From Closterium sp. NIES-65 (Eukaryota; Streptophyta; Zygnematophyceae; Desmidiales; Closteriaceae), in NCBI GenBank assembly GCA_948144175.1, contig CANXME010002128.1, forward strand, positions 372,001 to 436,000: a DNA stretch of 64,000 nucleotides, written 5' to 3'. Shown in pieces: positions 1,918-27,356 of the stretch. The notes under the pieces were generated by a model. That model saw only the letters and a list, made by a program, of their open reading frames with translations. It was not told where the DNA came from and searched no databases. Position numbers and translations under genes: made by a program. How positions within the stretch are numbered: the stretch's first letter is position 1; each line of letters starts with the position of its first letter.

Positions 1918-2123
1918 CTTTACTTGTACTGTGACATATATATATACCTGCTCTTGCTTGTCTAGTTTTATATATATGTCTGTACTCCTGCATGTGAACT
2001 AGCCTCTGGCCCTGCTCTTGTGCTCGGACTGTGTGGTGACTTTGTGATCCACCCTGAGCTTGCTTTGCTTTGCTTGACTGGTCTTGTGACCCCTTGTTCT
2101 CCCCCACTTTGCCTATGGGGGTG

Positions 2124-2860: not shown

Positions 2861-2877
2861 TGGTATGAGAGCAGACA
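2861..2877 (+). promoter_or_regulatory. Primer-binding site of element F
   Basis: TGGTATGAGAGCAGAC directly follows the 5' LTR and resembles the complement of an initiator-methionine tRNA 3' end (TGGTATCAGAGC), the usual Copia primer. Confidence 0.8.
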
Positions 2878-8820: not shown

Positions 8821-9314
8821 ATACTAAGGCATTTGACCCGAACGGGTCAGGTAACCCGACCTGACCGACCTTTTTGGCGGGTCGGGTATATAATTATGAT
8901 TGGATTATCCGGGCGGGTCGGGTATGTATACCCACGTCGGGTAACCTATACCCGATACCCGACCCGGGTGTTCAAACTCGGGGTTTGAGACCCGATACCC
9001 GACCTGGTTAAACATGCTTGAGGCTTGCAAAATGCCATAAGAAGCGCCTAACTACTAATTTTCAACTAGGAGTTTAGGTAATCAATGAGAGCGCACCGTC
9101 ACATTGTGTGAAATGTAAGATGAATTAAAATTTAATCACATTGTCTTTACGGGTACCCGGCCCAACCTCGGGTTATAAATACCCGAGGTGTACAAAGCGG
9201 TTCGGGTACTAACCTGACCCTTAGTACCCGAGGTCGGGTACCCGATCCGACCCCACCAAACCTAGGGTAGCCCCCAAACGGTTCGGGTCGGGTCGGGCCA
9301 ATGCCTAAGCCTAG
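8821..9314. mobile_element. hAT-like MITE upstream of SF3B1
   Basis: Imperfect terminal inverted repeats (CTAAGGCATTTGACCCG at the left; CTTAGGCATTGGCCCG as the complement of the right) enclose about 490 bp filled with inverted GGGTCGGGTA/TACCCGACCC motifs. TTTTGTGT flanks both sides (8813-8820 and 9315-9322) as an 8-bp target duplication, the size made by hAT transposases. No transposase frame is present. The exact ends are uncertain by a few bases. Confidence 0.65.
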
Positions 9315-9580: not shown

Positions 9581-12500
9581 ATGGACGCGACGGAGGACGA
9601 GATCGCGCGCATGCAGGAGGAGCGGCGCGCCAAGGAGCAGGAGCTGGCGGCGCTGGCGTCGGTGAGCTTCGACAAGGATCTGTACGGCGGCGGCGACAAG
9701 GACCGCTTCGCGGGCTACGAGATGTCGATCCCCGTGATGGAGGACGAGGAGGAGCAGGATGCCACGGAGCGGGAGGTCGCCAGGTTAGTTTCTCCGTAGG
9801 ATCTTGAGACGTTGCAGCACGGGTAGAAGTAGATGGTGGCGAGCGGCAAGGACCGGTTCGCGGAATACTACGAGATGTCCATTCCCGTCATGGAGGACGA
9901 GGAGGAGCAGGACGCAACTGAGCGGGAAGTCGCGAGGTGGGATTCCACTCTAGAGTGTTTAGACACGGAGAGGCGCCATACTTGCCTGTTTCCACTTCTC
10001 GATTTTTTTTTCCAAAATCTTCGGAGCAGCATTTATTGGTTCCGTTTCCGTCTGTAGCCGGCGTCGTCCCCTTTTTTTCGAGCATATTGTTGTCCTTGGT
10101 CATTCGTCGAGCTGCATGGCTGCCAATTCTCCATACGCGATAGTTTTCCGCCACCGGCCGTTGGACTCGCGGAACCAACCAAGCATTTCATTAAGCTCCG
10201 CCTTTCTCCCAAGAGCCGCAATCTCAGCGATCCTTTCCTTAGATTCCGCAAGCTCCCCATGTTTCCTCCGCTGCACGGACATCGCTTGTACAACTCATTG
10301 ATTTTCCCGATTTTTGGGAGATTTCGCTCTTGCTTGTCCGACACGTCATGCCGCCAGCAGAGTTTTCATTCACCAACCGTCATACGTCTCTATTTTGCTC
10401 CATCTCCAGTGCGCCGGCCGACTTAATCCTCTATCGCTTATTCTGCTCTTAAGGAGCGCATGCTTCGTTCCTTGGATTAGATCCGTTCTGACCCTAGCCT
10501 ACCTCTTTAATTATTCCCTTCCCTTATCCCGCCATGTTGTCTTTTAAGCTACCATCGACGAATTCCACGGCACACAGCGCCCAACGAGCTGCTGCACGTA
10601 CTCGTGGATGATGGGAGCGTGGCGTCGCCTTTTTTCTAGTTTTGACGGATTCTTCTGCTCTCCGCGTTCCCTCCTTCGCTCCCCTTTAGGAAGCTGGCGT
10701 CCTACACGGCGCCCAAGGAGCTGCTGCACGAGGTGAGGTGCATGCATCTGCGCTGCGACACTGACTCACCTCGCCCCTTGTGCTCTCTCACTCTCCCCTC
10801 TCTCACTCTCCCCTCTCTCACTCTCCCCTCTCTCTCCCCCCCTCTCTCTCTCTCCCCTCTCTCTCTCTCTCCCCTCGCCAGGAAGCTGGCGTCGTACACA
10901 GCGCCCAAGGAGCTGCTGCACGAGCTGCCGCGCGGAGAGGCGGAGGAAGAGGTGCGACGGGGGGTGGGGAGGGGGGAACGGGGTGGGGGGGAAGGGGAAG
11001 GTGAGGTGGGTGGGTGGGGGAGTGAAGGGGGACGGGAGAGAGGCGGAGAGATTGTTGAGGCGTGCGAGGAGGGGGGGGAGATAAAGCTGTAGGGAGGTCA
11101 GACGGAGGTAACGATGTGAGGGAGGGACGAGGGGGAAGTGAGGGGGAAGAGAAGAGGGAGGGAGAAAGGTGAGAGGAATTGGGGTGAGGAAATGGTAGGC
11201 TCTGCGGGTAGCGGGAGAGTGGGAGAAACTGTTAGATTGTTGGGCCGAATAGGGCAGGCATGTTGCTGTGTGGTATGAGGAATGAAGGTATGCCCTTCCG
11301 TCCCATACTTCCCTTCCCACACTGCCTCTTTCAATCGCCCTCGCCTCCTCGTTATCATGTCCCACTCCCTTTCCACCTCTCCACCTCTCCACTTCTCTGC
11401 CTCCCACTCTCCCTCTCTGCTCCCTCTCCAGGTTGCATGGCTAAAGGAACCATCACACATCATGTTGCGTGTGTGACAATGTGACCAGCTGATTTCTGAG
11501 CAATTGGCAACCCCCACTTACCCTCTCTCCCCCTCCCCCCCTCCCTCTTCTTCCCCCAGCCGGTGGGGTTCAAACAAGAAGCCATCGCGCATCATAGACA
11601 GGGAGGATGACTGTCGGCGCCGCTGCCTCTTGTAACCTTGTTCATGCCCCACTCTCCGTCCCTCCTTCTGTTCCCCCTCCCCCCCAAACCCCCCTTTTCT
11701 CCCCCTCACCAGCCCGCGGGGTTTAAGAAGCCATCGCGCATCATAGACAGGGAGGACGACTACCGGCGCCGCCGCCTCAACCGGATTATCTCGCCCGACC
11801 GCCATGATGCCTTTGCCATGGTATGTATGTACGGCCCGTTCTCCATTATACAGCCCGGTCGCAATGGTGCGTACGAAGCTGACGTGGGACTGACGGGATC
11901 TTGAAGTGTCTAGATTGTTATGCCTGTTGCGTTGCAATGCTGACGGAGGGAGGAGGAGGCGAAGTCGCAAGGTGGCTAAAACGTTGCTGCATGTATGTGT
12001 GTGTTGCTCTCGTTCGCTTTCTCTCTTGCCCTCCTCTCCCTCTTCCCATCCTCCAGGAAAACGCGACGCCTGATGCTGCAGTTCGCACATACGCGGACGC
12101 GATCGAGTGGGAGGCACTGAATCGGGACAAGGAGATGTTGGGGCGCCAACACATATGCTGCATGTATGTGTGTGTGTGTGTGTCTCTCTCCCTCTCTCCC
12201 CTCACCCTTACCCCATGCACCAGGGTGACGCCACCCCTGATGCCGCAGTGCGCACGTACGCGGACGTGATCAAGGAGGAGGCGTTGAAGCGCGAGAAGGA
12301 GGAGACGCTGAGGCAGATCGCCAAGAAGAAGGCGGAGGAGGCTGAGAGGAAGGCTGCTGAGCTCTCCTCCGCGCCCACCAAGGCCCAAGGCGCCGCTGCC
12401 GCCCCCGCTGCCGCTGCTGCCGCCCCTGCTGCTGCAGCTCCCAGTGCTGCTGCTGCTGCTGCTGCGGGGAGCAAGAGGAGGAATCGGTGGGACGTGGCGG

Positions 12501-15500
12501 GAGGGGGAGGGCCTGGTGCTGCGGAGGTTGAAGCCAAGTGAGTGTGGTGGGGTGGACGAGGGGGATGAAGGTTGGGAGGGGGAGGGCCTGGTGCTGCGAG
12601 GTTGAGGTCAAGTGAAGTATGGGAGGGTGGGTGGGGAGGGGAGGTTCTGTGTGTAGTGTAGGTGTGTGTGTGTGTGATGTTCACTCTTTCGCATCCCTTC
12701 ACCTTAGTTCTTTTGATCTTGCTGCCGCTGCTGCCCTGTCGGGGTGGCTTCAATGTATGTGGTGCGTGCGTACACCATGCGTACACCTTGGCCTTGGAAC
12801 TCTGTAACTCGCAACGTGTGGATCGCTCGGCTCGGCTCGGCTTTCCTGTGCTAACTTCAATGCCTCCCTCCCTCACTCCTCGTGTCGTTGCCGCTGCGGT
12901 GGATTGCAGGAAGCCCAAGGCAGCAGCTGATTGGGATGCTCCAGATGCCACTCCCGGCGCTGCTAGGTGAGAGACCGTCACATGCTAGGTGAGACACCGT
13001 CACATGCTAGGTGAGACACCGTCACATGCTAGGTGAGACACCGTCACATGCTAGGTGAGAGACCGTCACATGCTAGGTGAGAGACCGTCACATGCTAGGT
13101 GAGAGACCGTCACATGCTAGGTGAGACACCGTCACATGCTCTCCTGCTGCCGCTTCTGCTCTTTTCCTCTGCGTTTTGTCGCACTGCACTGCACGGCACA
13201 CTGCTGCTCTTTGCATAAGCCACCACCATGTCTCGCATTTTCTACCATACCTACCAACCTAGGGTTGTGTTGTGGGTCAGTCGTTGCACCACCATCCCCT
13301 GCCAATTCTGATCTAGGGTTCCCCAGATTAGCTCGTGTTCTCCACCTCAGTTCATTCCCCCTCTCCCTGCCTATCCCCTTTCCCCGTCTAACTCCGCTCC
13401 CCTCCTATCCGTACCCGCCCCTCCCTCCTCCCCCCCCACCCACCCTCTCATCTCTCCTCTTTTCCCTCCCCCAGTCGCTGGCACGCCCCTACCCTGGGGA
13501 GTGGCAGTGCGGTCGACGCCACCCCCACGCGCGAGTGCATTCTGGATATCTCACTAATCCTCAACCTCATCTGTTCCCCTACCTTCCCTTCGCCTCCCCT
13601 CCCCTCCCCTCCCCTCCCCTCCGCTCCCCCTGCCCTCCCCTCCCCTTCCCTCCCTCCCCTCCCCTTCCCTCCCTCCCCTCCCCTTCCCTCCCTCCCCTCC
13701 GCTCCCCCTCCCTCCCCTCCGCTCCCCCTCCCTTCCTCCCCTCCTCTTCCCCTCCCCAGTCGTTGGGACGCTCCCACCCCTGGTCGGGGCAGTGCAGTGG
13801 ACGCCACCCCCACGCCCGGCCCCCGCCGCAACCGATGGGATGAAACCCCCTCCCACGGCGGAGTAATGCCGGACGACGCCACCCCCTCCGCGCTCCCGGG
13901 CGGCGGCGGCGCCACCCCGGGGCTGGGCGGCGGGGCCACGCCGGCCGGCATGGCTTGGGACGCCACGCCGAAGCTCTCGGCCGGCGCCACCCCGACCCCG
14001 AAAAAGACGCGGTCCAGATGGGACGAAACGCCGGCCGGCGGAGGCGTTACCCCCGCGGGCGGCGGGGGCGGCGCCACCCCGTCCGCTGCTGTAGGCATGA
14101 CCCCCTCGGGGATGACTCCGGGGGGGGTGACATTTGGGGGAGCTACACCTGGTGGGTTCGGGGTCACACCGGTGGGAGGAATGGACATGGCAACTCCCAC
14201 CCCGGGTCAAATCGCCCTACGGGGGCCGCTCACCCCGGAGCAATTCACCATGCTGCGATGGGAGAGGGAGATTGAGGAGCGGAACAAGCCACTCTCAGAT
14301 GAGGAGCTGGATGCCATGTTTCCCTTAGACGGATATAAGGTGCTCGAACCCCCTGCCTCGTACGTCCCCATCCGCACCCCTGCGAGGAAGCTCCTCGCGA
14401 CGCCGACCCCGATGGGAGGAGCAGGGGGGGGTGCGACGCCGCTGTATGCGATTCCGGAGGAGGATCGGCAGCAGCTGTTTGACGTGGGGAAGGAGGTGCC
14501 GGGGCTGCCGAACCTGAAGCCGGAGGACTACCAGTACTTTGGCGCGCTGCTGAACGAGGAGGAGGAGGAGAAGATGAGCGCGCAGGAGAAGACCGAGAGG
14601 AAGATCATGAAGCTGCTGCTCAAGGTGGGTGGGGGAGAAGAGGGAAGTGGGTTGGGGTTGGAATGGGAAAGAGGGAGGAAGATGGGTTGGTGTGGGTGGG
14701 ATGGTAAGGAGGAGGTGCTCGTTCTCACCTGCTTGCTTCTTGCACTCTAACCCACACTCTCTTCCACTACTCACACTTATCGGTTTTATCTCCCCTGTAC
14801 CCCTCTGCACCACCCCACCCCGCATCCACGGTTACAGGTGAAGAACGGCACGCCTCCCCAGCGCAAGACGGCGCTGAGGCAGCTGACAGACAAGGCGCGG
14901 GAGTTTGGTGCGTCCGCCCTCTTCAACCAGATCCTGCCGCTGCTCATGTCGCCCACCCTGGAGGACCAGGAGAGGCATCTGCTCGTCAAGGTGAGTCAAT
15001 GCTGGTCAACGCTGGTGAACGCCGGCCGGTCAGCGCTGGTCAATGCTGTTATAGCTACCCTTTTCCAATCACATCCTCCCGCTGCTGATTTTGCACAAGA
15101 TGCCACAAGATGCCACTTGCACCTCATCACATCCCTCCGCTCTCCTTACACCTCATCTTGCCCACACCACAGGTCATCGATCGCATTCTGTACAAGCTGG
15201 ACGAGTTGGTGCGCCCCTTCGTGCACAAGATCCTGGTGGTCATCGAGCCGCTGCTCATTGACGAGGACTACTATGCACGTGTGGAAGGCAGAGAGATTAT
15301 CTCCAACCTCAGCAAGGTAAGCTGGTGGGGAGGGAGATCAACTGAGAGGGCCTTAGCAAAGGGCTGTGGTTTTTGGGCCTCTGCAAGTGTAAGCTGGACA
15401 TTTTCTGACTCGACTCAAAGCAAAGGGCCAGGAGATCATCTGTAGCGGCAAGTCTTTTCTTGATTGATCTGCACAGTTCGTGTGGCTGAAAGCTCTCAGA

Positions 15501-18500
15501 GCCAAGGTGCAAAAAAACGACGTTTTTTTCAAATTTTGATCGTAAAATACCGTATTGTAAGAAATGATCGTAAAAAACGATAAAAAAACTGTTTTTGAAA
15601 ATAAATACTTTTGGTGCAAAAAAAACCTTCGTTTTTTTCAGTAAAAATACCAAAAATGCTGCTGAAACAAGGGGATTGATTGGTGAGAAGAACAAGGGGG
15701 CCGTTAGAAGTGCTGATGATGCAGCGGAAGATCGGTAGAAGTGCTTTTGTGATCAGAACAGCATCTTTGAACAGCAACAGAAAAACGCATTTTTTTCTCA
15801 AAAGGTACCGTAAAAAACCATTGAAAAAAACAATCGTATTTTTCGACAATCGTTTTTTTCTACCTTGCTCAGAGCGCTTGGAAACCTTGTGTATTCCACT
15901 TTCCGGTATGAGAAAACAAGGCTTTTATCTTCCTATCTTGACACTTTTGTTTCTGTACGTCCTCGCATGGCATGTGTCCCGTCGTCACAACCCCTGCTTT
16001 TCTTCCTCGTGTCCTTAGTCTTGCTTCTCCCCTTGTCTTTCCACTCACAAGCAGCAGGCCTGGCAACGATGATCGCAGCCATGCGGCCGGACATAGACAA
16101 CATGGACGAGTATGTGTGCAACACCACCGCACACGAATTGCCAGTGCTGGCCTGACGTCCTCATTTCCGCCTCACTCACACCCTTATTTTCCTCTCTCCC
16201 CCTGTCATCTCCTCTTCTAACAGGCAGCAGGCCTTGCAACGATGATTGCAGCCATGCGGCCCGACATAGACAACGTGGACGAGTACGTGCGCAACACCAC
16301 CGCGCGCGCCTTCTCCGTGGTGGCCTCCGCGCTCGGCATCCCCGCTCTGCTGCCCTTCCTGAGGGCCGTGTGCGCCAGCAAGAAGTCGTGGCAGGCGCGG
16401 CACACGGGCATCAAGATCGTGCAGCAGATTGCGATTCTCATGGGGTGCGCCGTGCTGCCGCACCTGCGCTCCCTGGTTGATATCATTGAGCATGGGCTGG
16501 GAGACGACAACCAGAAGGTGAGAGTGGGGGTGGGGTTGTGCATGTGTGTTGACTCGATCATTGAACTGTCTCTTGCTTGTGAGTATTTATCAAGCATGGG
16601 CCGGGGGACAACGACAACCACAAGGTGAGACTTGGGGCGGAAAGGGATCCGATGAGAATGTAGGGATAGGAATGTGTTTGCGACATCACGACACAACTAG
16701 GGTTGCTGATGGATCACTGACCATGGGCTGGCTGGGGGACCACAAACCAGAAGTCGCCATCACATGGTGGTTCCTCGCAGATGCACTACCCCAAGTGTCA
16801 GCACACCATCCGCCAGAGCTCTGACTTGGGTGCTCTCTCTCACATCCCTCCATTCGCTTTCTTCTCTCTCTCTTCTCCTTCCATGGCTCCAGGTTCGCAT
16901 CGCACCATCACGTCCCTCTCCCTCGCAGCTATAGGAGAGGCATCGGCGCCCTACAGCATCGAGAGCTTTTACTTCGTGCTCTCGCTCACAACCATTCCAT
17001 CCATGTCTCCCTCCCTTCCTTCCCCCCCATCCCCCCTCTGCCTCTCCCCACCTGTCCCCATCACCTGTCCCCCCCTCTCCCACCTCTCCCCACCTGTCCC
17101 CATCACCTGTCCCCCCCTCTCCCACCTCTCCCCACCTGTCCCCATCACCTGTCCCCCCCTCTCCCACCTCTCCCCACCTGTCCCCATCACCTGTCCCCCC
17201 CTCTCCCACCTCTCCCCACCTGTCCCCATCACCTGTCCCCCCCTCTCCCACCTCTCCCCACCTGTCCCCATCACCTGTCCCCCCCTCTCCCACCTCTCCC
17301 CACCTGTCCCCATCACCTGTCCCCCCCTCTCCCACCTCTCCCCACCTGTCCCCATCACCTGTCCCCCCCTCTCCCACCTCTCCCCACCTATCCCCATCAC
17401 CTGTCCCCCCCTCTCCCACCTCTCCCCACCTGTCCCCATCACCTGTCCCCCCCTCTCCCACCTCTCCCCACCTGTCCCCATCACCTGTCCCCCCCTCTCC
17501 CACCTCTCCCCACCTGTCCCCATCACCTGTCCCCCCCTCTCCCACCTCTCCCCACCTGTCCCCATCACCTGTCCCCCCCTCTCCCACCTCTCCCCACCTG
17601 TCCCCATCACCTGTCCCCCCCTCTCCCACCTCTCCCCGCCTGTCCCCATCACTCAGGTGCGCACTATCACAGCGCTCTCTCTGGCAGCGCTGGCAGAGGC
17701 GTCAGCACTGTACAGCATTGAGAGCTTTGACTCTGTGCCCAAGCGGCTGCTTACTTGTGATCCCTCTCTCTCCCCCCCACCCTCCTTACTCAGGTGCGCA
17801 CCATCACGGCGTTATCCCTGGCAGCGCTGGCAGAGGCGTCAGCCCCCTACGGCATTGAGAGCTTTGACTCCGTGCTCAAGCCGCTGTGGAAGGGTATTCG
17901 TGCGCACCGCGGGAAGGTTCTTGCGGCCTTCCTGAAGGCGATCGGGTTCATCATCCCCCTGATGGACGCCATGTATGCCAGCTACTACACCCGCGAGGTA
18001 CGGAGAGACAGGGGTGCATGTGTATTGGGTTGGGTTCATCATAGGGGGCTCATGGGGGCACATGTGTTGGGTTCATCATAGGGGGCTCATGGGGGCACAT
18101 GTGTGGGGTTCATCATAGGGGGCTCATGGGGGCACATGTGTGGGGTTCATCATAGGGGGCTCATGGGGGCACATGTGTGGGGTTCATCATAGGGGGCTCA
18201 TGGGGGCACATGTGTGGGGTTCATCATAGGGGGCTCATAGGGGCACATGTGTGGGGTTCATCATAGGGGGCTCATGGGGGCACATGTGTGGGGTTCATCA
18301 TAGGGGGCTCATGGGGGCACATGTGTGGGGTTCATCATAGGGGGCTCATGGGGGCATATGTGTGGGGTTCATCATCCCCCTGATGGACGCCATGTACGCC
18401 AGCTACTACACTCGTGAGGTGCGTGGGCGATGGGGGGAGATGGGAGGGAAGGACTGGGATACATCGGTCCTTATGGGTGGGTATGGTGGGGTACGTCTCT

Positions 18501-21500
18501 TCATCATTCCCCTGATGGACGCCATGTATGCGAGCTACTGCACACACGAGGTGAGTGGGAGAGGGATGTGTAGGGGAAGGGTGGGGGTGGCATGAACGGG
18601 AGGGCACGGGGCGGGGGCGGAATCACCAGATCATCCATCTTTTGGATGCCATGCATGCGAGCGACTGTGCATGCTGGGTGACTGCACTCTGTGTGCATGG
18701 ACTGACAATGCCTCTTCTTTTCCTTGCATCTCCAACTCTCCCACCCTCCCTTCCCCTCCCTTGCCTCCCCTCCCCTCCCCTTCCCACCTCCCTGCTCGTT
18801 CAGGTGATGGTGGTGCTGATCCGCGAGTTCCAGTCACCAGACAAGGAGATGAAGAAGATCGTGCTCAAGGTGGTGAAGCAGTGTGTGGGCACGGACTGAC
18901 CCTGTCTCTTCCTCCCTCTCCACCTCTCCTCTTCTCCCCTCCCGCCCACTTATAGGTGATGGTGGTGCTGATTCGCGAGTTCCAGTCGCCGGACGAGGAG
19001 ATGAAGAAGATAGTGCTGAAGGTGGTGAAGCAGTGTGTGGGCACGGACGGCGTGGAGCCGGACTACATCCGCACGGAGATCCTCCCCGAGTACTTCAAGC
19101 ACTTCTGGGTGCGCCGCATGGCGCTCGATCGACGGAACTACAAGCAGCTCGTTGAGACCACAGTGGAGATTGCTAATAAGGTTAGTGGATTGACCAGTTG
19201 GGTCCTTGTTTGGGGTGCAACAGCCCAGCAGGAGATCCTCCCCGAGTACTTCAAGCACTTCTGGGTGCGCCGCATGGCGCTGGATAGGAGAAACTACAAG
19301 CAGCTGGTTGAGACGATGGTGAAGATTGCCAATAAGGTGTGTGAGTTGGGTATTGAGGGAGGGGAGGGGGGAGTATGGGTAGGTTGTTGACTGGTTGGGT
19401 CCTTGTGTTGCAGTGTCTAATCTTATCCGAGCCGACGTTGACTCAGTGGTAGCAGTTGCAACACGACCAATGGAGGCAGAAGAGGGAAGGGAGGTTGAGG
19501 AGGGGTAGGGGAGGGGACTGTGCAAGGCAGGTGAAACGGGAATCAGGACGTGGGAGTTGTTATCAGAAGCTCCGCAAACCATGTGTTGTCACAAGTGGAA
19601 ATCTGGCGAAGGGACTCACATGATTCGCAGAGTTTCTTATAACAACTCCCACGTCCTGATTCCCATTCTCGCTGCCTTGCACCATCCAATCCCCCATCCC
19701 CTCCCTCCTCTGCCTCCCTTCCCTCTTCTGCCTCCATTGGCTGTCTGTGTTGCAACTGCTCTCATTGTGTCAACGCCGGCTCGGTTGCGACAGGAGAATG
19801 TGGTGTAGCAGCGTGAGGGGACAGTCAGTGTGCGACCAGGCGGGCATGAGTGACATAAGTAGTTGCATTGCAGGGCATTACAGCAGAGTGACGTGATTGC
19901 AGGGCAGGGTGGGTCGTATTTGGCAGAAGACCTTGAGGAGGACCACAGCCAGCCATCTCTGTCCTCCGCTCACCTGTTTCTTCCCTTCACCATGTCCCCT
20001 TATCCCCATGTACAAACTCATCACCTTCCCTTCCCTTGCAGGTGGGGTTGAGCGACCTCAACGTTATCCTTCACTCACCATTCCCCTCGCTTCACCGTAT
20101 CCTCTTATCCCCTCACTCACATCTCTCTCCCCCCCCCCTAACAGGCGGGGGTGAGCGACATCATAGGGCGTGTGGTGGAGGACCTCAAGGACGAGAGTGG
20201 TCCGTCTTTGGCCTTCACTACCATATCCCTCACCTCACCATATCCCTCCCTCGATCACATCTCCCTCTCCACCCACTCCCACCCACTCCCACCCACAACC
20301 CCCCATCCTCAGGCGGGGGTGAGCGACATCATAGGGCGCGTGGTGGAGGACCTCAAGGACGAGAGTGAGCCGTACCGGCGCATGGTGATGGAGACGGTTG
20401 AGAAGGTGCTCACCAACCTGGGGGCCGCTGACATCGACGCGCGGCTTGAAGAGTTGTTGATCGACGGCATCCTTTACGCATTCCAGGAACAGGTGGGTGT
20501 GTGTTTGTTTTGGTGGGGACTTTTTGCTCTATGCATGACAGAGGGTGCATGGTGATGGAGACGGTGGAGAAGGTGCTCACCAACCTGGGCGCCGCTGACA
20601 TTGACGCACGGCTGGAGGAGCTTCTGATCGATGGGATTCTTTACGCCTTCCAGGAGCGGGTGGGTGATTTGAAGGAGCAGGAGATGCGTGAAGGGTGGTG
20701 TAGGCTCGACACATGACAGAGGGCGCATGGTGATGGAGGCGGTGGAGAAGGTGCTCTCTAACCTGGGGGCCACTGACATCGATGCCAGGCTGGAGGAACT
20801 ACTGATTGACGGAATCCTCCATGCGTTCCAGGAGCAGTTGGGTGGGTGACTGGCAGCAGGTGGTTGCGTATGTGCGTGGGCTAGTGAGGCACATCGCATG
20901 GTGATGGAGACGGTGGAGAAGGTGCTCACTAAGCAGAGGGCTGCTGATATTGATGCTCGACTTGAAGAGCTGCTGATCGGCAGCTCTGGTTAGTGAGCAC
21001 CTTCTCAACCGTCCATCAGGAGCAGGTGAGTGTGTGTGTGGGTGATTAAAGATGTGGGGTGGGTGGGGACAGCAGGTGAGGGGGGGATATCATGGAATAT
21101 CAGTTAGTCTAGTGAGGCGCATGGTGTTGGAGACAGGAAGGGCGATGGGAAGGCATGAAGCTTGCATGCATGGGGATGGGAAGGCATGAAGCTTGCATGC
21201 ATGATGTTAAGTTGAGTTGCTGCTTCTGTTCATGCTATTGACGATGTTGTTCTCAATGTCTTTGGCAATGGCAGGCAACGGCAACAATCGGCTCATGCTT
21301 TGTATGGTTATTTTGTAGCAATAATAACTCCATCCCTCTCTTGGACACATACACCACACCATGATGGTATGGCATTGACGCATGGGTGATGGTGCTGTTG
21401 TGCACTGTACATGCATGTGCAATCATGTCTGTGTCATTGCGTGTGAGTGCAGACAAGCGACGACGCGAATGTAATGCTCAACGGCTTTGGCACGGTGGTG

Positions 21501-24500
21501 AATGCGCTCGGGCAGAGAGTGCGTCCCTACCTCCCCCAGGTCAGTGCCTCCCTCTGCAGTGCAGCTCAGCATTTATATCCGCTGTGGATGCAGCTAGTTC
21601 TCTGTAGCCTTAGCACCCCTGTCTACTGTGACCACTGTTTGCTCTCTTGTCTCTGCAGCGTCCACAGGTCCTTTGCTCGTCTCTGTTTCTCCCCTCCATT
21701 TTCGTCGCCTCTTTTTCCCTTCCGTTTTCCCTGTCTGTGTTTCAGATCTGTGGAACGGTGAAGTGGCGGCTGAACAACAAGAGTGCCAAGGTGCGGCAGC
21801 AGGCAGCGGATCTGATAGCGCGCATTGCCGTGGTCATGAAGGCGTGCGGGGAGGAGCAGCTTATGGGGCACCTGGGCGTCGTGCTTTACGAGTACCTGGG
21901 AGAAGGTGAGTCGGGTCCATGGTGTGGCACAGTGCAGTGCGGTTGAGTACACTGCAATGTGATTCAATGCGGTGCAGTGGCATGTCGTGCATGTAGCAAG
22001 AGTGCGGCAGCAGGCGGCGGACCTGATAGCGCGCATTGCCGTGGTGATGAAGGCGTGCGGGGAGGAGCAGCTCATGGGGCACCTGGGCGTCGTGCTCTAC
22101 GAGTAGGGATGAGCATAAGGCGAACGCGAACATGTTCGCGTTCGTCTTAGCTCGAACAGGGCTGTTCGGCGAACCGAACTCACCAGAAAGGGTGTTCGAA
22201 GTTCGCCCATAGAGGCGAACATTTCGAACGTTTTGGCGAACACGAACACGTTTGCCGAGAACATGTTCGTGTTCGCTTTAGAGGGGTAGCACTACAATTC
22301 TATAGATTTAACGGTGGAAACCACTTCAACGGTGGTGCAAACCCTAAAAGTACAGACGAATCTTCAACCTTGGAGTAGATGCTACGTTCTTAGTGTTGAA
22401 CATCGAAGTCACCATAAACCCTAAACGCCATAGTTTTATAAGTACGGTCTTGGGCCTATGCTACTACTAGAAGGTGTGGGTGTGGTTGGTGGTTGTGGGG
22501 TGGGCGGGCTGTTGGGAGCGCCATGGTTGACAAGCTGAAAAAAATGAGCAACAATTGTGAGGGCCGCGACCCTAAATTAGGTCGCGGCACTTTCAGCGAC
22601 GAACATTTTAGGTGTTCGTCGACAAGTGTGTTGAACACGAACATGTTCGCGTTCGACGCGCCTCAGGACATCGCGGCCGGCGAACAGCGAACATATTCGC
22701 CCGAACGTCGAACATGTTCGGGACGAACATTTTCAGGCAAAAAAAAATCCCGTTCGGTTCGTCTCGAACATGTTCGAGACGAACCGAACGGGTGTTCGCC
22801 AATATGCTCATCCCTATTTACGAGTACCTGGGAGAAGGTGAGTAGAGTAGGATATGGTGTGCATGGTGCAGTAAGGTGCAGTGTGGTGCAGTAGAATAAT
22901 AGAGCAGTGGTGATGAAGGCGTGCGGGGAGGAGCAGCTCATGCGACATCTGGGCGTCGTGTTGTGCGAGTACCTGGGAGAAGGTATGATGCAGTGTAGTG
23001 TGGTGCAGTGTGGTGTGTATGGTGTGGTCTGGTGGTAACATAGAGCTGTGCTGATGAGGGCATGTGGGAGGAGCAGCTGATGGGGCACCTGGCTGGGCAT
23101 CGTGTTATACGTGTACCTGGAATGTGGGTTGAATTCAGTGTGTCATGGTTCAGTGCGGTTCAGTGCGGTGTCATGCGTTCAGTGGAGCAGCTCACGGGGC
23201 ACCTTGGTGTGGTGTTCGCGAGTACCTGTAGGTAGGTACCATGCGGTAGGGCTCGGTGTCATGCGGTGCAGTCCGATGAAGTGTCATGCATGCAGTGGAG
23301 CAGCTCACGGGGCACCTGGGCTGGCTCACGTGATTGGCATGATCAAAATGACTCCCCCTCCCAATTGTTGCTGATATCCACACACCACACCTATGTGACA
23401 CACTCTCTCGCCCTCTCCCTCCCTCCAGAGTACCCCGAGGTGCTGGGGTCCATCCTGGGCGCGCTCAAGGTCATAGTGAATGTGATTGGCATGACCAAGA
23501 GGTTCCCTTCCACCCCTTGCTGCTCATACCCACACATTAATGCCCACCCCACCTGTGTCACTCTCTCTCCCAACTGTGCCATGCCCCTTCCCCTCCCTCC
23601 AGAGTACCCCGAGGTGCTGGGGTCCATCCTGGGAGCCCTCAAGGCCATAGTGAACGTGATCGGCATGACCAGGATGTTCCTCCCCTTGCTACTCCTTCCC
23701 ACACGCACATCACAACACACCAATGCGCCATGCACTTGTGCCACCCTCTCTCTCTTCCCTTAATCCCTCCAGAGTACCCCGAGGTGCTGGGGTCTATCCT
23801 GGGAGCGCTCAAGGCGATAGTGAACGTGATCGGCATGACCAAGATGACTCCTCCCATCAAGGACCTGCTGCCCCGCCTCACGCCCATCCTCAAGAACAGG
23901 CACGAGAAGGTAAGTCGCCGTTGTTTTGTTCTTCCTTCACACGAATTTGGGCTGCATATGTGGCCCGCTCCGCTCCTCCCCCCCCCTCCCCTCTCCCCCA
24001 ACCCCACTGCCAGGATAAAGCATTTCGTTGAGTAGTGGGATGCATTGCAGGCTCACAGGCTGAACCATCCTTCCTTCAATCCGTGTCCTCTCCTGTGTGT
24101 GGTGCAAACACCACCCTACTGCCACCATCATTCCCACCACCACCTCACCAAACCCCGCTCCACCCACAGGTGCAGGAGAACTGCGTCGATCTGGTGGGAC
24201 GCATTGCAGGCACACAGGCTAAACCTCTGGTTTCACCCATCCTTAACACGCCGCCTCCTCTCTCCCCTGACCCCTTCCCCCCCTCCCTTGTCTTCCACCA
24301 ACACTATTCCACCCCACAGGTGCAGAAGAAGTGCATTGCAGACAGACAATCTGAACCCTCCTCTCTTCAATCCGTCTCTCTCCCTGTATGTGTGTTGCCA
24401 ACACCACTCACACCACCCCCATACGACTTTCCCACCACCCCGCACTACCATTCGCAGGTGCAGGAGAATTGCATCGACCTGGTGGGGCGCATTGCGGACA

Positions 24501-27356
24501 GGGGAGCGGAGTTCGTGCCGGCGAGGGAGTGGATGCGCATCTGCTTTGAACTGCTCGACATGCTCAAGGTGCGTGACTGGGATAGACCGTAGGGTGGAGA
24601 TGGGTGTGCTTAAGGTGAGGCGGAGGGAGAAAAAAAATCGCTCCATTGAGCAGCGAGGGAGTGGATGCGCATGTGCTTTGAGCTGCTGAACATGCTCAAG
24701 GTGCGAAGGGAGGGGGTGAGAGGGGTGTGGCCAGGGAGTTAAGGAGAATGGATGAGGAAATCGCGGCATAGGTTAGGAGTGAGAGGCAATTACGCACGAG
24801 GGAGTGCATGCGCATATGCTTCGAGCTACTGGACATGCTCAAGGTGTGTGAAGCGTGAGGAGAGCGGGCTTGGTCAAGGTGATGGATGGTCAGGTGGAGG
24901 GGGCTATGCCGGTGTGGGAAAGTGCGAGCATGGGTGCAGTACCAGGTAAACAGGTGAGGGAAAAGATGCTGTTATGCTTACAAGGTGGTGATAGTGGTGG
25001 TGGTAGTGCTGCTATGAGTAGTGGCGACTGCCACAGGGCAGGGCGTCTCCCAAATGTTCTTGAGATGCTGCTCCAAATCCGTTTCTCTCCTGCTGCCCCT
25101 CTTTATTTTCCCCTCTGCCCTCTCTTCAGGCGCACAAGAAGGGAACCCGGGGAGCCACGGTGAACACCGTTGGGTACATTGCCACATGATAAGAGTGTAG
25201 TTTTGAGACGTCTCAAAACATCGCCAAGGCCATCGGCCCACAGGATGTGCTGGCAACGCTGCTGAACAACCACAGGGTGCAGGAGCGGCAGAACAAGGAG
25301 CGGCAACCTATCTTCTTCTCTCACCCTGCTGGCCCTTCCCTCTCCCCCAGGCACACAAGAAGGGAGTCAGACGTGCTACAGTGAAAACCTTTGGTTACAT
25401 CGCCAAGGCCATTGGCCCTCAGGACGCGCTGGCAACGTGGCTCCTCCCTCTCTTACCCTGCTGCGCCCAATTCCCCCTCCCTTTTCTACTCCCTTTCAGG
25501 CACACAAGAAGGGAATTCGGCGTGCCACGGTGAACACCTTTGGGTACATCGCCAAGGCCATCGGGCCCCAGGACGTGCTGGCGACGCTGCTGAACAACCT
25601 CAAGGTGCAGGAGCGGCAGAACCGCGTGTGCACCACCGTGGCCATTGCCATTGTGGCTGAGACCTGCTCGCCCTTCACTGTGCTGCCTGCCCTGATGAAC
25701 GAGTGAGTGCCGCATGTAGCAACAATAGCTGATCAGACTCTGCTTTTGAGGTGCCTCGAAAGCAACTGCTGGGCAGGATTGAGGTGAGTGATGGTGGTGC
25801 TGAACAACCTCAAGGTGCAGGAGCGGCAGAACCGCGTGTGCACCACCGTGCTCTTGTTGCTGAGACCTGCTCTTCCTTCACCGTGCTGCCTGCTCTCATG
25901 AGCGAGTGAGTGCTGCTTTGATGAAGACAATGAAACTGTGAAGCAGAGGGGTGACTGTTTTGTTCATCTGATTCTTTCCAGTCAAACATGGTTCATCGTT
26001 TCTTTTTGCTTCCCCTCAGCCGAAGCCAAACGTGCAGAACGAAGGGATCAGGCCTTTATGCTGTCCATCCCCCAACCCCTTCTCACCCTTATCCTCTCCT
26101 GCCTCTCGCTCTTCTCCCTCCCACCTCTCAGGTACCGAGTGCCAGAGCTGAACGTGCAAAACGGGGTGCTCAAGTCGGCATGTTTCTGAGCCTTCTTACT
26201 CTTCTCCTCTCCCACCTTTCCCGCCTCTCCTCTTCTCTCAGGTACCGAGTGCCGGAGCTGAATGTGCAGAACGGGGTGCTCAAGTCGCTGTCGTTCCTGT
26301 TTGAGTACATCGGCGAGATGGGGCGAGACTACATCTATGCCGTCACTCCGCTGCTGGAGGATGCGCTCATGGATCGAGACCTGGTGCACCGACAGGTGGG
26401 TAGTGTATGGTAGGGTGTGTGTGGGGTTAGGGGGCCCAGACAGTAGTTATGAGTCCGTCTCGCTCTTGCATGTGCTTTCCACCGACCGTCTTTGGAGTCA
26501 AACCACTGCTCTCGCATTTGTTCTTTCATCTGGCAACCCGAATTTTGTTTGAACCGAACATCTCCTCTTCCGCTTACTTGTGTTTCAGACGGCAGCATCG
26601 GCAGTGATGCACATGACGCTGGGAGTGGCAGGGCTTGGTTGTGAAGATGCTCTGGTGAGTCCTCTGTCTGCTGGTCGGGCATGCTATCGACCAGGCTCCT
26701 TGTCCATTAGGCTTGTTGGCCATCAGGCTCCTTCCCCGTCAGTCACATGGTCCACGCCTTCTTGCTGATTTTGACCTGTCCCGCCCTTCTTACTGCGCAT
26801 CTCGTTAGTGTTTATTCCTGATTTTTGCTCAACTATTATCTCGGCTAGGTGTTTCAATAATTACCTTACTGGTTCATTCATGTTTGTTATGCAGATTCAC
26901 TTGCTAAATCTGGTGTGGCCCAACATCTTTGAGACATCGCCTCACCTGATTCAAGCAGTCATGGGAACCATTGACGGCATGAGGGTGGCTCTGGGCCCTG
27001 CGCTCGTGCTTGGCTATGTCCTGCAGGTATGCAGCTTTTTATGTTGTCATCAGCATGTGCCAGGTTTGCTGGGTCGTTCCATTGTTGCATACATGTGGTT
27101 CTCTTGCTATAGAGCAAGGATTGTATTTCAAACTAGCTTGTCCTTGTTGTAGACTTTAATCTTAACCCCTTATCTTCCCTGTTTGTTTTCCATGCAGGGT
27201 CTATACCATCCAGCTCGTAAGGTGCGTGAGGTGTATTGGCGTATCTACAACAACCTGTACATTGGTGCACAAGATGCCCTTACGGCTGCATACCCACGCC
27301 TGCCTGACGAGCCGAACAATACCTACACTCGAGCGGAGCTTGACATGTTCATCTGA
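9581..27356 (+). CDS. SF3B1: Splicing factor 3B subunit 1 (SF3b155)
   Basis: Core U2 snRNP protein that clamps the intron branch site during spliceosome assembly. Exons I place, all with GT-AG and consistent phase: 9581-9783, 10882-10951, 11713-11820, 12224-12537, 12910-12966, 13760-14624, 14838-14990, 15173-15316, 16224-16517, 17794-17997, 18956-19180, 20313-20492, 21453-21539, 21746-21905, 23773-23909, 24458-24568, 25500-25702, 26242-26395, 26589-26654, 26895-27026, 27198-27356. The sum is 4026 nt, 1341 residues (human 1304). The N-terminus has the plant-like [19 protein letters not shown], a poly-Ala stretch, U2AF-binding RWD motifs ([18 protein letters not shown]) and the p14-binding [23 protein letters not shown] repeats follow from exon 7. 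The residue matching human K700 is the last codon of exon 9 (NQK/VRT); the drug-site [10 protein letters not shown] is in exon 17. Exon choice between true exons and their partial copies rests on family alignment and phase. Confidence 0.96.
9833..9936 (+). repeat. Exon 1 echo of SF3B1, possible alternative first exon
   Basis: A diverged copy of the second half of exon 1 ([20 protein letters not shown]) lying in intron 1. It has its own ATG at 9833 and a donor GAG/GTGGGA. From that ATG it is 104 nt, ending in the same phase as true exon 1, so joining it to exon 2 would keep the frame and shorten the N-terminus. Whether it is transcribed is unknown. Confidence 0.75.
10563..10732 (+). repeat. 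Exon 2 echoes of SF3B1
   Basis: Two partial copies of exon 2 upstream of it. 10690-10732 ([14 protein letters not shown]) keeps acceptor TTTAG and donor GAG/GTGAGG; at 43 nt it is in the same phase class as true exon 2 (70 nt) and could replace it without a frameshift. 10563-10608 is a decayed copy around CACAGCGCCCAACGAGCTGC. Confidence 0.8.
10776..10880 (+). repeat. CT-rich microsatellite before exon 2
   Basis: Repeats of CTCTCACTCTCCC and CTCTCTCTCCCC form an extended polypyrimidine tract running into the true exon 2 acceptor at 10880-10881. Confidence 0.85.
11560..11628 (+). repeat. Exon 3 echo of SF3B1
   Basis: Copy of the first half of exon 3 ([12 protein letters not shown] region) about 150 bp upstream of the real exon. 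It keeps a CCCCCAG acceptor with a pyrimidine tract. The spacing and the shared flanking CT-rich intron indicate tandem duplication across the 3' splice site. Confidence 0.85.
12057..12137 (+). repeat. Exon 4 5'-edge echo of SF3B1
   Basis: Copy of the start of exon 4 ([19 protein letters not shown] against [19 protein letters not shown]). It keeps the acceptor CCTCCAG and lies 167 bp upstream of the true exon start. Confidence 0.85.
12573..12618 (+). repeat. Exon 4 3'-edge echo of SF3B1
   Basis: The end of exon 4 and its donor (GGGCCTGGTGCTGCGGAGG... CCAAGTGAGTG) is repeated just downstream in intron 4, again with GTGAAG at the donor position. Confidence 0.75.
12961..13136 (+). repeat. Minisatellite of the exon 5 donor site (8 x 22 bp)
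   Basis: Eight tandem copies of a 22-bp unit that begins TGCTAGGTGAGA. The first copy contains the real exon 5 end and donor (CTAG/GTGAGA), and every further copy repeats the same consensus donor. Units differ only at one position (GAGAGACC or GAGACACC). Confidence 0.95.
13475..13548 (+). repeat. Exon 6 5'-edge echo of SF3B1
   Basis: Copy of the first 70 or so bases of exon 6 ([19 protein letters not shown] in the corresponding frame) 285 bp upstream of the true exon. The CCCCCAG acceptor and CT-rich tract are intact. Confidence 0.8.
13578..13752 (+). repeat. CCCCT/CCCTCC microsatellite before exon 6
   Basis: Almost pure pyrimidine repeats (CCCCTCCCCTCC, CTTCCCTCCCTCC) of about 170 bp forming the polypyrimidine tract of exon 6. 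Confidence 0.85.
15503..15867. mobile_element. hAT-like MITE in SF3B1 intron 8
   Basis: 365 bp, AT-rich. Terminal inverted repeats CAAGGTGCAAAAAAACGA and, as the complement of the right end, CAAGGTAGAAAAAAACGA (16 of 18 matching). A perfect 8-bp target duplication CTCAGAGC lies at 15495-15502 and 15868-15875. The CAAGG terminus fits the hAT end consensus. There is no coding frame. The many ACGTTTTTT and AAAAAACGA motifs inside are likely subterminal repeats. Confidence 0.9.
16051..16155 (+). repeat. Exon 9 5'-edge echo of SF3B1
   Basis: Copy of the beginning of exon 9 ([20 protein letters not shown]) 173 bp upstream of it. The base before the exon edge is A instead of G, so the original AG acceptor position is lost here, and the copy runs into a stop (GCCTGA). 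Confidence 0.85.
16590..16756 (+). repeat. Exon 9 3'-edge echoes of SF3B1
   Basis: Two partial copies of the last 35 bases of exon 9 (GAGCATGGGCTGGGAGACG...). One at 16590-16624 keeps the donor AAG/GTGAGA; the other at 16720-16756 (CCATGGGCTGGCTGGGGGACC) has lost it. Confidence 0.75.
16893..16985 (+). repeat. Exon 10 5'-edge echo 1 of SF3B1
   Basis: Decayed copy of the start of exon 10 after an intact GGCTCCAG acceptor, no longer open in the exon 10 frame. It is separated from the next copy by the 42-bp minisatellite. Confidence 0.8.
17036..17640 (+). repeat. 42-bp polypyrimidine minisatellite in SF3B1 intron 9
   Basis: About 14 nearly identical copies of a 42-bp C/T-rich unit (CTCCCCACCTGTCCCCATCA and following). 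It makes a 600-bp pyrimidine-rich plus strand ending at a CACTCAG acceptor used by the exon 10 echo at 17657. Because 42 is a multiple of three, long meaningless open frames occur on both strands. Confidence 0.96.
17657..17755 (+). repeat. Exon 10 5'-edge echo 2 of SF3B1
   Basis: Close copy of the start of exon 10 ([20 protein letters not shown]) with acceptor CACTCAG, 137 bp upstream of the real exon start. The frame stays open to the copied edge, but no good donor follows. Confidence 0.9.
18029..18370 (+). repeat. 37-bp minisatellite derived from exon 10
   Basis: About nine tandem copies of a 37-bp unit beginning GGGTTCATCATAGGGGGCTC. The GGGTTCATCAT part matches the exon 10 segment coding for GFIIPL, so the array appears to have grown from exon sequence. 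The last unit runs directly into an exon 10 echo. Confidence 0.92.
18365..18552 (+). repeat. Exon 10 3'-edge echoes of SF3B1
   Basis: Two copies of the end of exon 10 ([18 protein letters not shown] and [18 protein letters not shown]), each followed by an intact donor (GAG/GTGCGT and GAG/GTGAGT). A third, fainter trace (TTTTGGATGCCATGCATGCG) lies near 18640-18665. Confidence 0.9.
18804..18897 (+). repeat. Exon 11 5'-edge echo of SF3B1
   Basis: Copy of the first 90 or so bases of exon 11 ([18 protein letters not shown]) with acceptor GTTCAG, 152 bp upstream of the true exon. It ends in a TGA right after the copied part, so inclusion would stop translation. Confidence 0.9.
19228..19336 (+). 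repeat. Exon 11 3'-edge echo of SF3B1
   Basis: Copy of the last 105 or so bases of exon 11 ([20 protein letters not shown]) in intron 11, with donor AAG/GTGTGT. Confidence 0.9.
19427..19784. mobile_element. Foldback (long inverted repeat) element in SF3B1 intron 11
   Basis: Two arms of roughly 140 bp in inverted orientation around a centre of about 75 bp. Matching pieces include CCGAGCCGACGTTGAC (left) with the complement of GTCAACGCCGGCTCGG (right), TTGCAAC, CCAATGGAGGCAGAAGAGGG, and GGGAATCAGGACGTGGGAGT next to the centre. The transcript could fold into a long imperfect hairpin. No coding frame and no clear target duplication, so the family is unknown. Confidence 0.8.
20038..20200 (+). repeat. 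Exon 12 5'-edge echoes of SF3B1
   Basis: A short trace (20042-20065, after TTGCAG) and a good copy (20145-20200, [18 protein letters not shown] after AACAG) of the start of exon 12. The true exon begins at 20313. Confidence 0.85.
20546..21026 (+). repeat. Exon 12 3'-edge echoes of SF3B1, one with an inverted piece
   Basis: Three copies of the end of exon 12 ([20 protein letters not shown] region) at about 20549-20660, 20728-20837 and 20896-20980. The first has a donor CGG/GTGGGT. After the third, AGTGAGCACCTTCTCAACCG near 20991-21010 is the reverse complement of part of the same exon, so one fragment is inverted; it is followed by GAGCAG/GTGAGT. Confidence 0.88.
21142..21204 (+). repeat. Short tandem duplication in SF3B1 intron 12
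   Basis: GATGGGAAGGCATGAAGCTT and following bases are present twice in a row (about 31 bp each). It is not derived from an exon. Confidence 0.8.
21994..22103 (+). repeat. Exon 14 3'-edge echo 1 of SF3B1 (left part)
   Basis: Copy of the second half of exon 14 ([20 protein letters not shown]) broken at its end by the MITE at 22104-22816; it resumes at 22825 and reaches a donor GAAG/GTGAGT near 22841. Confidence 0.9.
22104..22816. mobile_element. hAT-like MITE inserted in an SF3B1 exon echo
   Basis: 713 bp with terminal inverted repeats TAGGGATGAGCATA, flanked by an 8-bp target duplication with one difference (TCTACGAG at 22096-22103, TTTACGAG at 22817-22824). TAGGG fits the hAT end consensus. 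The unoccupied sequence is visible in true exon 14 (CTTTACGAGTACCTGG). No transposase. The interior has five exact copies of GAACATGTTC and a 44-bp perfect palindrome. Because it sits inside a duplicated copy, it is younger than that duplication. Confidence 0.93.
22749..22792. repeat. 44-bp perfect palindrome
   Basis: Centred at 22770/22771 on GAACATGTTC, near the right end of the MITE. Each half reads CCCGTTCGGTTCGTCTCGAA toward the centre. It could form a cruciform in DNA or a hairpin in RNA. Confidence 0.95.
22817..23330 (+). repeat. Further exon 14 3'-edge echoes of SF3B1
   Basis: After the MITE: the end of echo 1 (22825-22841), echo 2 (about 22907-22981, donor GAAG/GTATGA), echo 3 (about 23046-23120, CATGTGGGAGGAGCAGCTGA), and shorter GGAGCAGCTCACGGGGCACC traces near 23177 and 23295, interspersed with GGTGCAGTG-type microrepeats. 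Confidence 0.85.
23330..23675 (+). repeat. Exon 15 5'-edge echoes of SF3B1 (about 173-bp tandem unit)
   Basis: Two good copies of the start of exon 15 ([20 protein letters not shown]) at 23429 and 23603, each after CCTCCAG, and a short trace at 23330 (GTGATTGGCATGATCAAAAT). Spacing of about 173 bp to the true exon at 23773 shows a direct tandem array of exon edge plus intron. Confidence 0.93.
24033..24350 (+). repeat. Exon 16 5'-edge echoes of SF3B1
   Basis: Three copies of decreasing clarity: 24170-24232 ([16 protein letters not shown], acceptor CCACAG), 24320-24350 (acceptor CCACAG) and a trace at 24036-24062. The true exon starts at 24458. Confidence 0.88.
24600..24845 (+). repeat. Exon 16 3'-edge echoes of SF3B1
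   Basis: Copies of the exon 16 end ([14 protein letters not shown]) at 24653-24700 (donor AAG/GTGCGA) and 24797-24843 (donor AAG/GTGTGT), plus a short trace GTGCTTAAGGTGAGG at 24606. Confidence 0.88.
25130..25437 (+). repeat. Exon 17 5'-edge echoes of SF3B1
   Basis: 25130 to about 25300 (acceptor CTTCAG) covers the first half of exon 17 and is interrupted by an insert of about 39 bp that carries a 20-bp perfect palindrome at 25200-25219. 25351-25437 (acceptor [27 protein letters not shown]) is a cleaner copy. The true exon starts at 25500. Confidence 0.9.
25797..25905 (+). repeat. Exon 17 3'-edge echo of SF3B1
   Basis: Copy of the second half of exon 17 ([17 protein letters not shown]) with a small internal deletion and an intact donor GCGA/GTGAGT. 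Confidence 0.88.
26132..26180 (+). repeat. Exon 18 5'-edge echo of SF3B1
   Basis: Copy of the first 49 bases of exon 18 ([15 protein letters not shown]) with acceptor CTCTCAG, 110 bp before the true exon. This is the last echo in the gene; introns 18-20 have none. Confidence 0.92.

Follow-up and report, generated by a model that had tools for sequence, protein, structure and literature searches.

Exon edges of multi-exon genes in Closterium sp. NIES-65 recur as partial copies, here called echoes, in the introns beside them. Echoes occur in 9 of the ten multi-exon genes that we modelled and in at least one place in 66 of 109 introns, a tally that in CCT1, CCT3 and CCT6 includes short minisatellite copies. 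The echoes look dead. Their divergence is best fitted by two phases, a first in which exon and echo both still functioned (silent divergence about 0.26) and a second after the death of the echo (about 0.06); a constant weak constraint does nearly as well. Our preferred reading, held tentatively and at somewhat short of even confidence, is that echoes are dead exon halves left when diverged functional copies of one gene recombined or served in break repair; both the diverged lineages and the repair route are what we infer.

Results

The window, the whole stretch of 64,000 nucleotides analysed (contig CANXME010002128.1), holds the gene for SF3B1, a protein that acts in branch-site recognition, at 9581..27356 on the + strand. 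The gene model has 21 exons, GT-AG introns and an intact open frame of 1341 amino acids, and was built with tblastn and human SF3B1; the predicted protein is 67% identical to that human sequence. Exons 1-7 lie at 9581-9783, 10882-10951, 11713-11820, 12224-12537, 12910-12966, 13760-14624 and 14838-14990; exons 8-14 at 15173-15316, 16224-16517, 17794-17997, 18956-19180, 20313-20492, 21453-21539 and 21746-21905; and exons 15-21 at 23773-23909, 24458-24568, 25500-25702, 26242-26395, 26589-26654, 26895-27026 and 27198-27356. A search of the assembly (874 Mb, 2400 contigs) located the gene on two further contigs: C1786 carries a second copy of the locus, 97.0-99.3% identical to the window, and C249 carries it at 99.8% identity, beginning at window position 9989, after exon 1.

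Each SF3B1 exon was aligned with the introns on either side of it; 100 dinucleotide shuffles of each intron and a score floor of 85 served as thresholds. Thirty-nine intron matches, 19 upstream and 20 downstream, exceed both the floor and all shuffles, showing that the echoes are real; an earlier note, made from the sequence alone, had put them at about 34. All 39 lie in adjacent introns on the same strand (+) as their source exons. Upstream matches begin within 15 nt of the exon start in 16 of 19 cases, and downstream matches end within 15 nt of the exon end in 16 of 20. The rule proposed in that note, that copies of exon starts always lie upstream and copies of exon ends always downstream, is nearly right: 32 of the 39 reach the expected edge, and the other 7 are internal, weak or chance. 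Matches were obtained for exons 1, 2, 3, 4, 6, 7 (weak), 9, 10, 11, 12, 14, 15, 16, 17 and 18. The list given before thus stands except for exon 5, which has no match above shuffles and floor in its adjacent introns, and gains the weak case of exon 7. The last bases of exon 5 and its donor recur in the unit of a 22-bp tandem array of 8.2 copies (12961..13140, +; TRF, 98% matches). The same scan found no echoes of exons 19-21, which lie past the end coordinate of the earlier note, in their adjacent introns, and no SF3B1 exon copy with both sides.

Along the gene (all echoes + unless stated, scores in brackets), the end of exon 1 is echoed with its donor kept at 9835..9936 (312; codon-position differences 0/2/10), and the start of exon 2 with its acceptor kept at 10690..10735 (197), with a second and shorter echo of the start region at 10572..10598 (124). 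Further echoes represent the starts of exon 3 (11576..11629; 226), exon 4 (12061..12134; 216) and exon 6 (13475..13533; 163, acceptor kept), and the end of exon 4 (12574..12611; 150). Exon 7 has a weak echo of its interior (15058..15097; 89 against a shuffle maximum of 79), and the echo of the start of exon 9 has lost its AG (16051..16153; 361). The start of exon 10 has an outer echo (16901..16981; 229) and an inner one with the acceptor kept (17657..17749; 333). Three echoes of its end follow, the first two with the donor kept (18365..18418; 237 and 18500..18550; 200) and the third degenerate (18630..18666; 97). Exon 11 is echoed at its start with the acceptor (18804..18896; 399) and at its end with the donor (19231..19336; 409); a weak match to its interior lies at the floor of 85 (19796..19832; 86 against a shuffle maximum of 69). 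Exon 12 has one start echo with the acceptor kept (20145..20205; 272) and three of its end, at 20544..20655 (406; codon-position differences 3/0/11), at 20722..20837 (349; donor GT lost) and at 20895..20984 (285). An inverted partial copy of exon 12 on the - strand (20974..21018; 139, or 121 as the reverse-strand score in the shuffle scan) accounts for the 1 of 40 exon sides, exon 12 downstream, that rose above threshold on the reverse strand.

The end of exon 14 is echoed five times. The first echo comes in two pieces, apparently severed by an inserted element (first piece 21997..22105; 467, codon-position differences 0/0/5; last piece 22817..22837; 105). The second keeps its donor (22904..22982; 296) and is followed by a third (23045..23120; 188), a fourth (23184..23228; 130) and a short fifth (23297..23321; 103). 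The start half of exon 15 recurs as an outermost fragment (23328..23358; 111) and as outer (23429..23512; 299) and inner (23603..23684; 337) echoes that both keep the acceptor. Exon 16 has a start echo with the acceptor (24170..24212; 149) and two end echoes with the donor (24653..24700; 196 and 24797..24843; 169), the former overlapped by a short match to the interior of exon 17 that is probably chance (24682..24704; 93). Start echoes of exon 17 with the acceptor lie at 25130..25184 (198) and, the inner one, at 25351..25442 (295), accompanied by a copy of the exon middle (25218..25294; 319) and an end echo with the donor (25798..25905; 393). The start of exon 18 is echoed with its acceptor at 26132..26177 (197). 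Splice sites are mostly retained, as had been claimed: among well-anchored SF3B1 echoes of at least 40 nt, AG is kept in 11 of 12 and GT in 8 of 9.

The earlier note proposed that unrelated genes be compared, and we did so with CCT1-8 and the clathrin heavy chain, whose exons were modelled from human proteins with automatic splice refinement, so that some edges are approximate and some genes incomplete. All eight CCT genes carry echoes: 24 in CCT1, 16 in CCT2, 32 in CCT3, 6 in CCT4, at least 25 in CCT5, 27 in CCT6, 12 in CCT7 and 11 in CCT8, where counts include short tandem-array copies and stop at 10 per exon side, a number reached by CCT5 exon 8. The clathrin heavy chain has no echoes on 32 exon sides; its introns are short (mean 228 nt). 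Across the 109 introns of the ten genes, median length is 758 nt with an echo and 256 nt without. Reverse-strand matches occur on 1 exon side in CCT3 and on none in the other CCTs. HMM matches of the MCM and RPB2 families overlap in similar fashion, as judged by eye. The PROCN domain of PRPF8 sits within one long frame. 'Exons 8 and 9' of our CCT1 model turn out to be a single exon flanked by echoes on either side; together with a copy of CCT8 exon 6 they are near exceptions to the half-exon pattern. A gene-specific role in splicing feedback for the SF3B1 echoes is not supported.

In nine genes, anchored echoes of at least 40 nt keep AG in 47 of 52 start-halves, mostly behind a pyrimidine tract, and GT in 41 of 47 end-halves, plus two GC; anchoring at the edge favours retained splice sites in this count. 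By hand calculation, retention is about the 88% expected from neutral decay at t=0.06. Past the splice site the flanks soon cease to match, with similarity dropping towards background over about 4 nt at the acceptor and 8 nt at the donor. The claim that each copy carries the neighbouring intron bases holds in part: of the 99 anchored flanks of 70 nt that lie outside the CCT5 exon 8 array, 22 score above every one of 60 shuffles and the other 77 stay at shuffle level (hand count). Within that array, which has at least 10 upstream copies at a 124-nt period, 9 of 10 flanks beat all shuffles. Elsewhere in that gene, the flank of a CCT5 exon 2 echo is identical to that of the exon at 70 of 70 bases. 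Ten echoes outside the array show 1-5% exonic divergence, and a recognisable flank is present in only 2.

We saw no clear splice signal at the inner edges of echoes, 57 of them upstream and 57 downstream. Start-halves lead into C/T-rich sequence, and G/T-rich sequence precedes end-halves. The best donor score near start-half ends is 8.3, slightly above the 7.7 of control stretches, and the best acceptor score near end-half starts is 8.1 against 8.0 in control stretches. AG|GT stands at the inner junction in single cases such as SF3B1 exon 2, not regularly. The repeat unit, measured as the offset from the nearest echo of at least 40 nt to the corresponding exon copy, is 110-175 nt on 65 of 88 exon sides and in no case smaller than 110, with spacer medians of 75.5 and 81 nt; shorter tandem units occur among short matches. 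In the 22 exons flanked by echoes on either side, the closest upstream half and the closest downstream half break off at nearly a common point: the median gap between them is 13.5 nt, where permutation gives 54, and it is at most 14 nt in 12 of the 22 exons, where 3.2 are expected. The farther echo is the more diverged in 31 of 48 consecutive pairs (31 vs 17), and in 11 exons the upstream and downstream halves show no correlation in age. On 27 of 88 exon sides, about a third, the nearest offset is a multiple of three (hand count). We rejected four ways in which the halves might be spliced: joining of start-half to end-half (inner edges lack a clear donor or acceptor signal), internal AG|GT splicing of the repeat unit (only some exons have AG|GT), retention of the spacer in frame (just 27 of 88 offsets fit) and recursive splicing (many exon starts are not GT).

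The echoes bear signs of death. A frameshift or stop breaks 39 of 135. Amino-acid changes fall equally on sites identical to human (264/2239) and different from human (119/972; p=0.72), and their BLOSUM classes are close to the single-step neutral expectation. Stops make up 9 of 383 changes where about 15 (3.9%) are expected, slightly fewer than neutral.

A copy neutral since birth should, by our reasoning, give a dN/dS of about 0.5 or more against a working exon, because the working exon adds mainly silent changes. Exon-echo dN/dS is 0.18 for 192 echoes and 0.16 for the 136 of at least 40 nt, and echo-echo dN/dS is 0.19 (66 pairs). Third-position transversions are found at 209 of 1505 fourfold sites (0.139) versus 36 of 1140 twofold sites (0.032; p=3e-15), a twofold/fourfold ratio of 0.23 where 0.5 is expected under neutrality from birth. 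Transitions are similar (0.120 fourfold, 0.131 twofold), and this pattern indicates that past constraint acted on the protein. Third-position GC stays near the exon level, with 314 S-to-W and 261 W-to-S changes. In 35 triples, the changes private to the younger echo divide into 49 silent and 34 replacement, where a silent share of 24% would be expected (p=8e-12); the exon's own branch holds 38 silent and 19 replacement changes, not silent ones only. Fifteen echoes without any replacement differ at 57 of 219 silent sites, and silent differences per site, after trimming, range by gene from 0.195 (CCT8) to 0.387 (CCT7).

We fitted three models to 131 echoes: S=2t for duplication followed by decay, S=F+2t for a fixed silent head start F before the death of the echo, and S=ct for constant constraint. 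Log likelihoods were -741.6 for S=2t, -588.7 for S=F+2t (F 0.256, t 0.062) and -592.1 for S=ct. With inner ends trimmed (106 echoes) they were -573.2, -445.6 and -446.7. The lead of S=F+2t is thus 153 log units over S=2t (128 with trimming) and 3.5 over S=ct (1.1 with trimming). We favour the fixed head start over S=ct mainly because the replacements look neutral in kind. Other accounts of the silent excess were rejected: the transversion test and SNP rates argue against a third-position mutation bias, the changes private to the younger echo against fast silent change in the exon alone, and mild overdispersion (chi2 150 on 117 df) against a mixture of live and dead echoes. The drop in constraint seen more than about 70 nt away from the splice edge appears to come mostly from where alignments stop on their inner side.

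Between the two gene copies of 8 genes, SNPs occur at 21 of 7781 echo positions 1+2, 17 of 3874 echo positions 3, 197 of 43750 intron positions, 9 of 9276 exon positions 1+2 and 18 of 4636 exon third positions. Echo positions 1+2 have fewer SNPs than introns (p=0.023; about 31.5 expected at per-gene intron rates, by hand), a deficit driven in large part by SF3B1, with zero SNPs in 2534 echo bases. By type, echo SNPs are 22 replacement and 16 silent. This mild deficit at positions 1+2 hints at some present constraint and is the main fact against fully dead echoes.

Materials and methods

Echoes below 40 aligned nt were left out of unit spacing, GC3, echo-echo dN/dS, splice retention, flanks, inner edges, the 136-echo dN/dS, transversions, breakage and conservation, BLOSUM and model fits; the cut-off was 36 nt for triples, 60 nt for one constraint-drop analysis and mainly 85 nt for a second, while the check on the inner alignment end used 40 nt. 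Short echoes were counted in the SF3B1 and CCT scans, the 192-echo dN/dS, the SNP comparison and the intron tally. CCT1 exons 8/9 were dropped from triples, BLOSUM, model fits, half-age pairs and the gap test, and kept in codon tallies (breakage, conservation) and in the dN/dS, unit-spacing, splice-retention, flank, inner-edge, SNP, constraint-drop and transversion analyses. The array upstream of CCT5 exon 8 was either omitted or reduced to a single copy in echo-echo dN/dS, flank profile, inner edges, 136-echo dN/dS, constraint drop, transversions, triples, BLOSUM, fits and codon tallies.

Discussion

How could recombination between diverged gene copies leave half-exons in introns? The copies may be homeologs brought together by hybridisation, or alleles if the population is very diverse. 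The event would begin with a break or switch within an exon, and synthesis on the other copy would supply the rest of the exon, the splice site and some tens of bases of its intron. The new end would not be captured by homology, because only exons are similar enough to pair, and would be joined to the old break. The exon would thereby be rebuilt whole, while its old half stayed behind in the intron, downstream if it was an end-half with its donor and upstream if it was a start-half with its acceptor. The direction rule would follow from selection, which would remove every event that does not leave the exon complete. Functional divergence followed by recombination would give the silent head start, the neutral replacements, the neutral-looking loss of splice sites and the largely unrelated flanks; homology limited to exons would give half-exons, their direction and a tract length of about 150 nt.

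We count in favour of recombination scars the wide occurrence of echoes, their signs of death, the silent excess, the meeting break points, the unit of about 150 nt, splice-site retention close to the neutral expectation, and the hybrid origin reported for strain NIES-4550 of this complex (PMC10407611). Several results count against them. Among the matches listed, this genome shows no diverged copy that could have been the donor; for a 2-kb DNA query of SF3B1 these matches comprise two full copies and one cut by a contig start, and for the CCTs two copies each with a partial third for CCT6. The uncorrelated ages of the two halves mean that these need not come from one event, and a recognisable flank in just 2 of 10 young echoes implies more change in flanks than silent sites suggest. 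The replacements on the exon's own branch, the near-tie of S=ct, the SNP deficit and the plain tandem arrays also weigh against this reading.

Plain tandem duplication across the splice junction in one lineage, by slippage or unequal sister exchange, would yield copies neutral from birth, and would explain the direction rule since other duplications would break the gene. This is close to the local by-product suggested in the earlier note, and parts of it hold: recent perfect tandem arrays exist, as in CCT5 exon 8, a CCT5 exon 2 flank is identical throughout, 22 of 99 flanks outside the exon 8 array beat all shuffles, farther echoes tend to be more diverged, and inner edges lack clear splice signals. 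The silent-site excess does not fit, however. S=2t loses by 153 log units, dN/dS is 0.16 rather than 0.5 or more, the transversion ratio is 0.23 rather than 0.5, and 77 of 99 flanks are at shuffle level. Silent mutation would have to be about 3 times faster, and the SNPs at exon third positions and in introns show no such excess. We regard this explanation as doubtful, and tandem duplication with neutral decay as the sole cause is strongly disfavoured; unequal exchange is also still acting, as the CCT5 exon 8 array and exon 2 flank show.

Alternatively, echoes may be functional now, as alternative or decoy splice sites with coding sequence kept by purifying selection; unproductive splicing at them might adjust expression. 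Low dN/dS, also among echoes, would agree with this, as would the kept splice sites, third-position GC near the exon level, fewer SNPs at codon positions 1+2 than in introns, the close fit of S=ct and stops slightly below neutral. Yet inner ends without clear donors or acceptors make halves that are not obviously joinable in frame, offsets are multiples of three in only about a third of exon sides, 39 of 135 echoes are broken, replacements ignore conservation and chemistry, and unrelated genes have comparable echo density. From sequence comparison, present function seems unlikely. Regulation specific to SF3B1, in which echoes make the transcript a sensor of spliceosome activity, was the idea first raised for this locus and would suit the branch-site role of the protein and 39 echoes in one gene. 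It is very improbable, and the comparison with unrelated genes that the earlier note named as a check goes against it, as CCT1-8 carry 6-32 echoes each at comparable density, MCM and RPB2 matches overlap likewise (by eye), and the echoes show neutral-looking amino-acid changes, stops and frameshifts. An assembly or polishing artefact is barely conceivable, because the locus stands on two further contigs and echo-exon divergence ranges from 0 to more than 20%.

Tandem duplications and templated insertions arise at repaired double-strand breaks. Echoes resemble these in being local copies, with no clear inner-junction signal and a unit of one to two hundred bases. They differ in that the inner junction lies inside exons, repeatedly and in 9 of 10 modelled genes, and that their silent divergence seems older than their death. 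Introns are also known to be gained by tandem duplication of an AG|GT-bearing exon piece, and there too intron sequence is built from exon copies; echo inner junctions, in contrast, lack regular AG|GT, and splicing of the host introns takes place elsewhere. Mutually exclusive tandem exons likewise place repeated exon sequence and splice sites within introns, whereas most echoes are halves with a single splice site and 39 of 135 are broken. Splicing-factor genes carry poison exons, which are similarly exon-like intron sequence in a splicing factor, but echoes are not gene-specific and SF3B1 has no two-sided exon copy. A search of the literature by title and abstract opening found no description of exon-edge copies of this kind.

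According to the available part of a report on the Closterium psl complex (PMC10407611), strain NIES-4550 is of hybrid origin with recombination between genes of different origin, such genes lie on one contig with recombination borders confirmed by PCR, and gene duplicates in the group of NIES-65 are at least partly recent. That system would supply what our reading calls for, divergent versions of a gene within a single nucleus; the part of the report available does not describe exon-edge copies (PMC10407611).

If recombination scars are the right reading, echoes would lengthen the introns of many intron-rich genes and add sequence with splice sites to them, and would bear on recombination where introns are too diverged to pair. 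Gene predictors would meet exon-like halves with real splice sites in most introns of affected genes, which calls for caution. Extinct allelic lineages would be readable from introns. More speculative than the origin of the echoes themselves is the possibility that introns preserve, much as fossils do, past sex or hybridisation between widely diverged genomes: each exchange within an exon that ends in end-joining would strand a half-exon of a lost lineage. Introns would then lengthen by about 150 nt at a time and hold extinct alleles that can be dated, perhaps in most genes.

Echo scan of CCT5 and clathrin heavy chain

Scanning the comparison genes for echoes, partial copies of exon edges lying in the adjacent introns, revealed at least 10 copies of the start of CCT5 exon 8 upstream of that exon (L019, reverse strand, 5221-6514), repeating with a period of ~124 nt. 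Among the matches listed, 9 of 10 copies were identical to the exon, and the array is a recent amplification. In the clathrin heavy chain gene (L028), whose introns are short, the scan detected echoes on none of 32 exon sides, with 17 exons chained.

Sequence context of the SF3B1 echoes

Examination of echo surroundings in SF3B1 (9581-27356) and in other surveyed sequences (L016-L025) displays G/T-rich sequence ahead of end-halves and C/T-rich sequence past start-halves, and thus the introns appear to carry a strand skew running from their donor side towards their acceptor side.

SF3B1 introns also harbor other repeats. Minisatellites occupy 17041-17652 (42 bp, 14.6 copies) and 18032-18375 (37 bp, 9.3 copies); the 37-bp unit starts with GGGTTCATCAT, as does the adjoining exon 10 end echo (18365-18418). 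Between exons 11 and 12, the intron contains a self-complementary stretch of ~358 bp (19427-19784), 77% identical to its own reverse complement. Reading the sequence further, we found that the first exon 14 end echo is split after its first piece (21997-22105) by a stretch at 22106-22816, beyond which the echo picks up again (22817-22837). This stretch is possibly a small DNA transposon; its termini resemble inverted repeats, with TAGGGATGAGCATA... at one end and ...TATGCTCATCCCTA at the other. Around SF3B1, several retroelement reading frames, which we take to be copia-like, lie in window 1-9000 and 33000-63000, one being a stop-to-stop frame of 1750 aa (2841-8093).

At 9833-9936 (ATGGTGGCGAGC...), the sequence and exon-intron alignment place an ATG ahead of the exon 1 echo and in its coding frame, so this echo could in principle be used as an alternative first exon.
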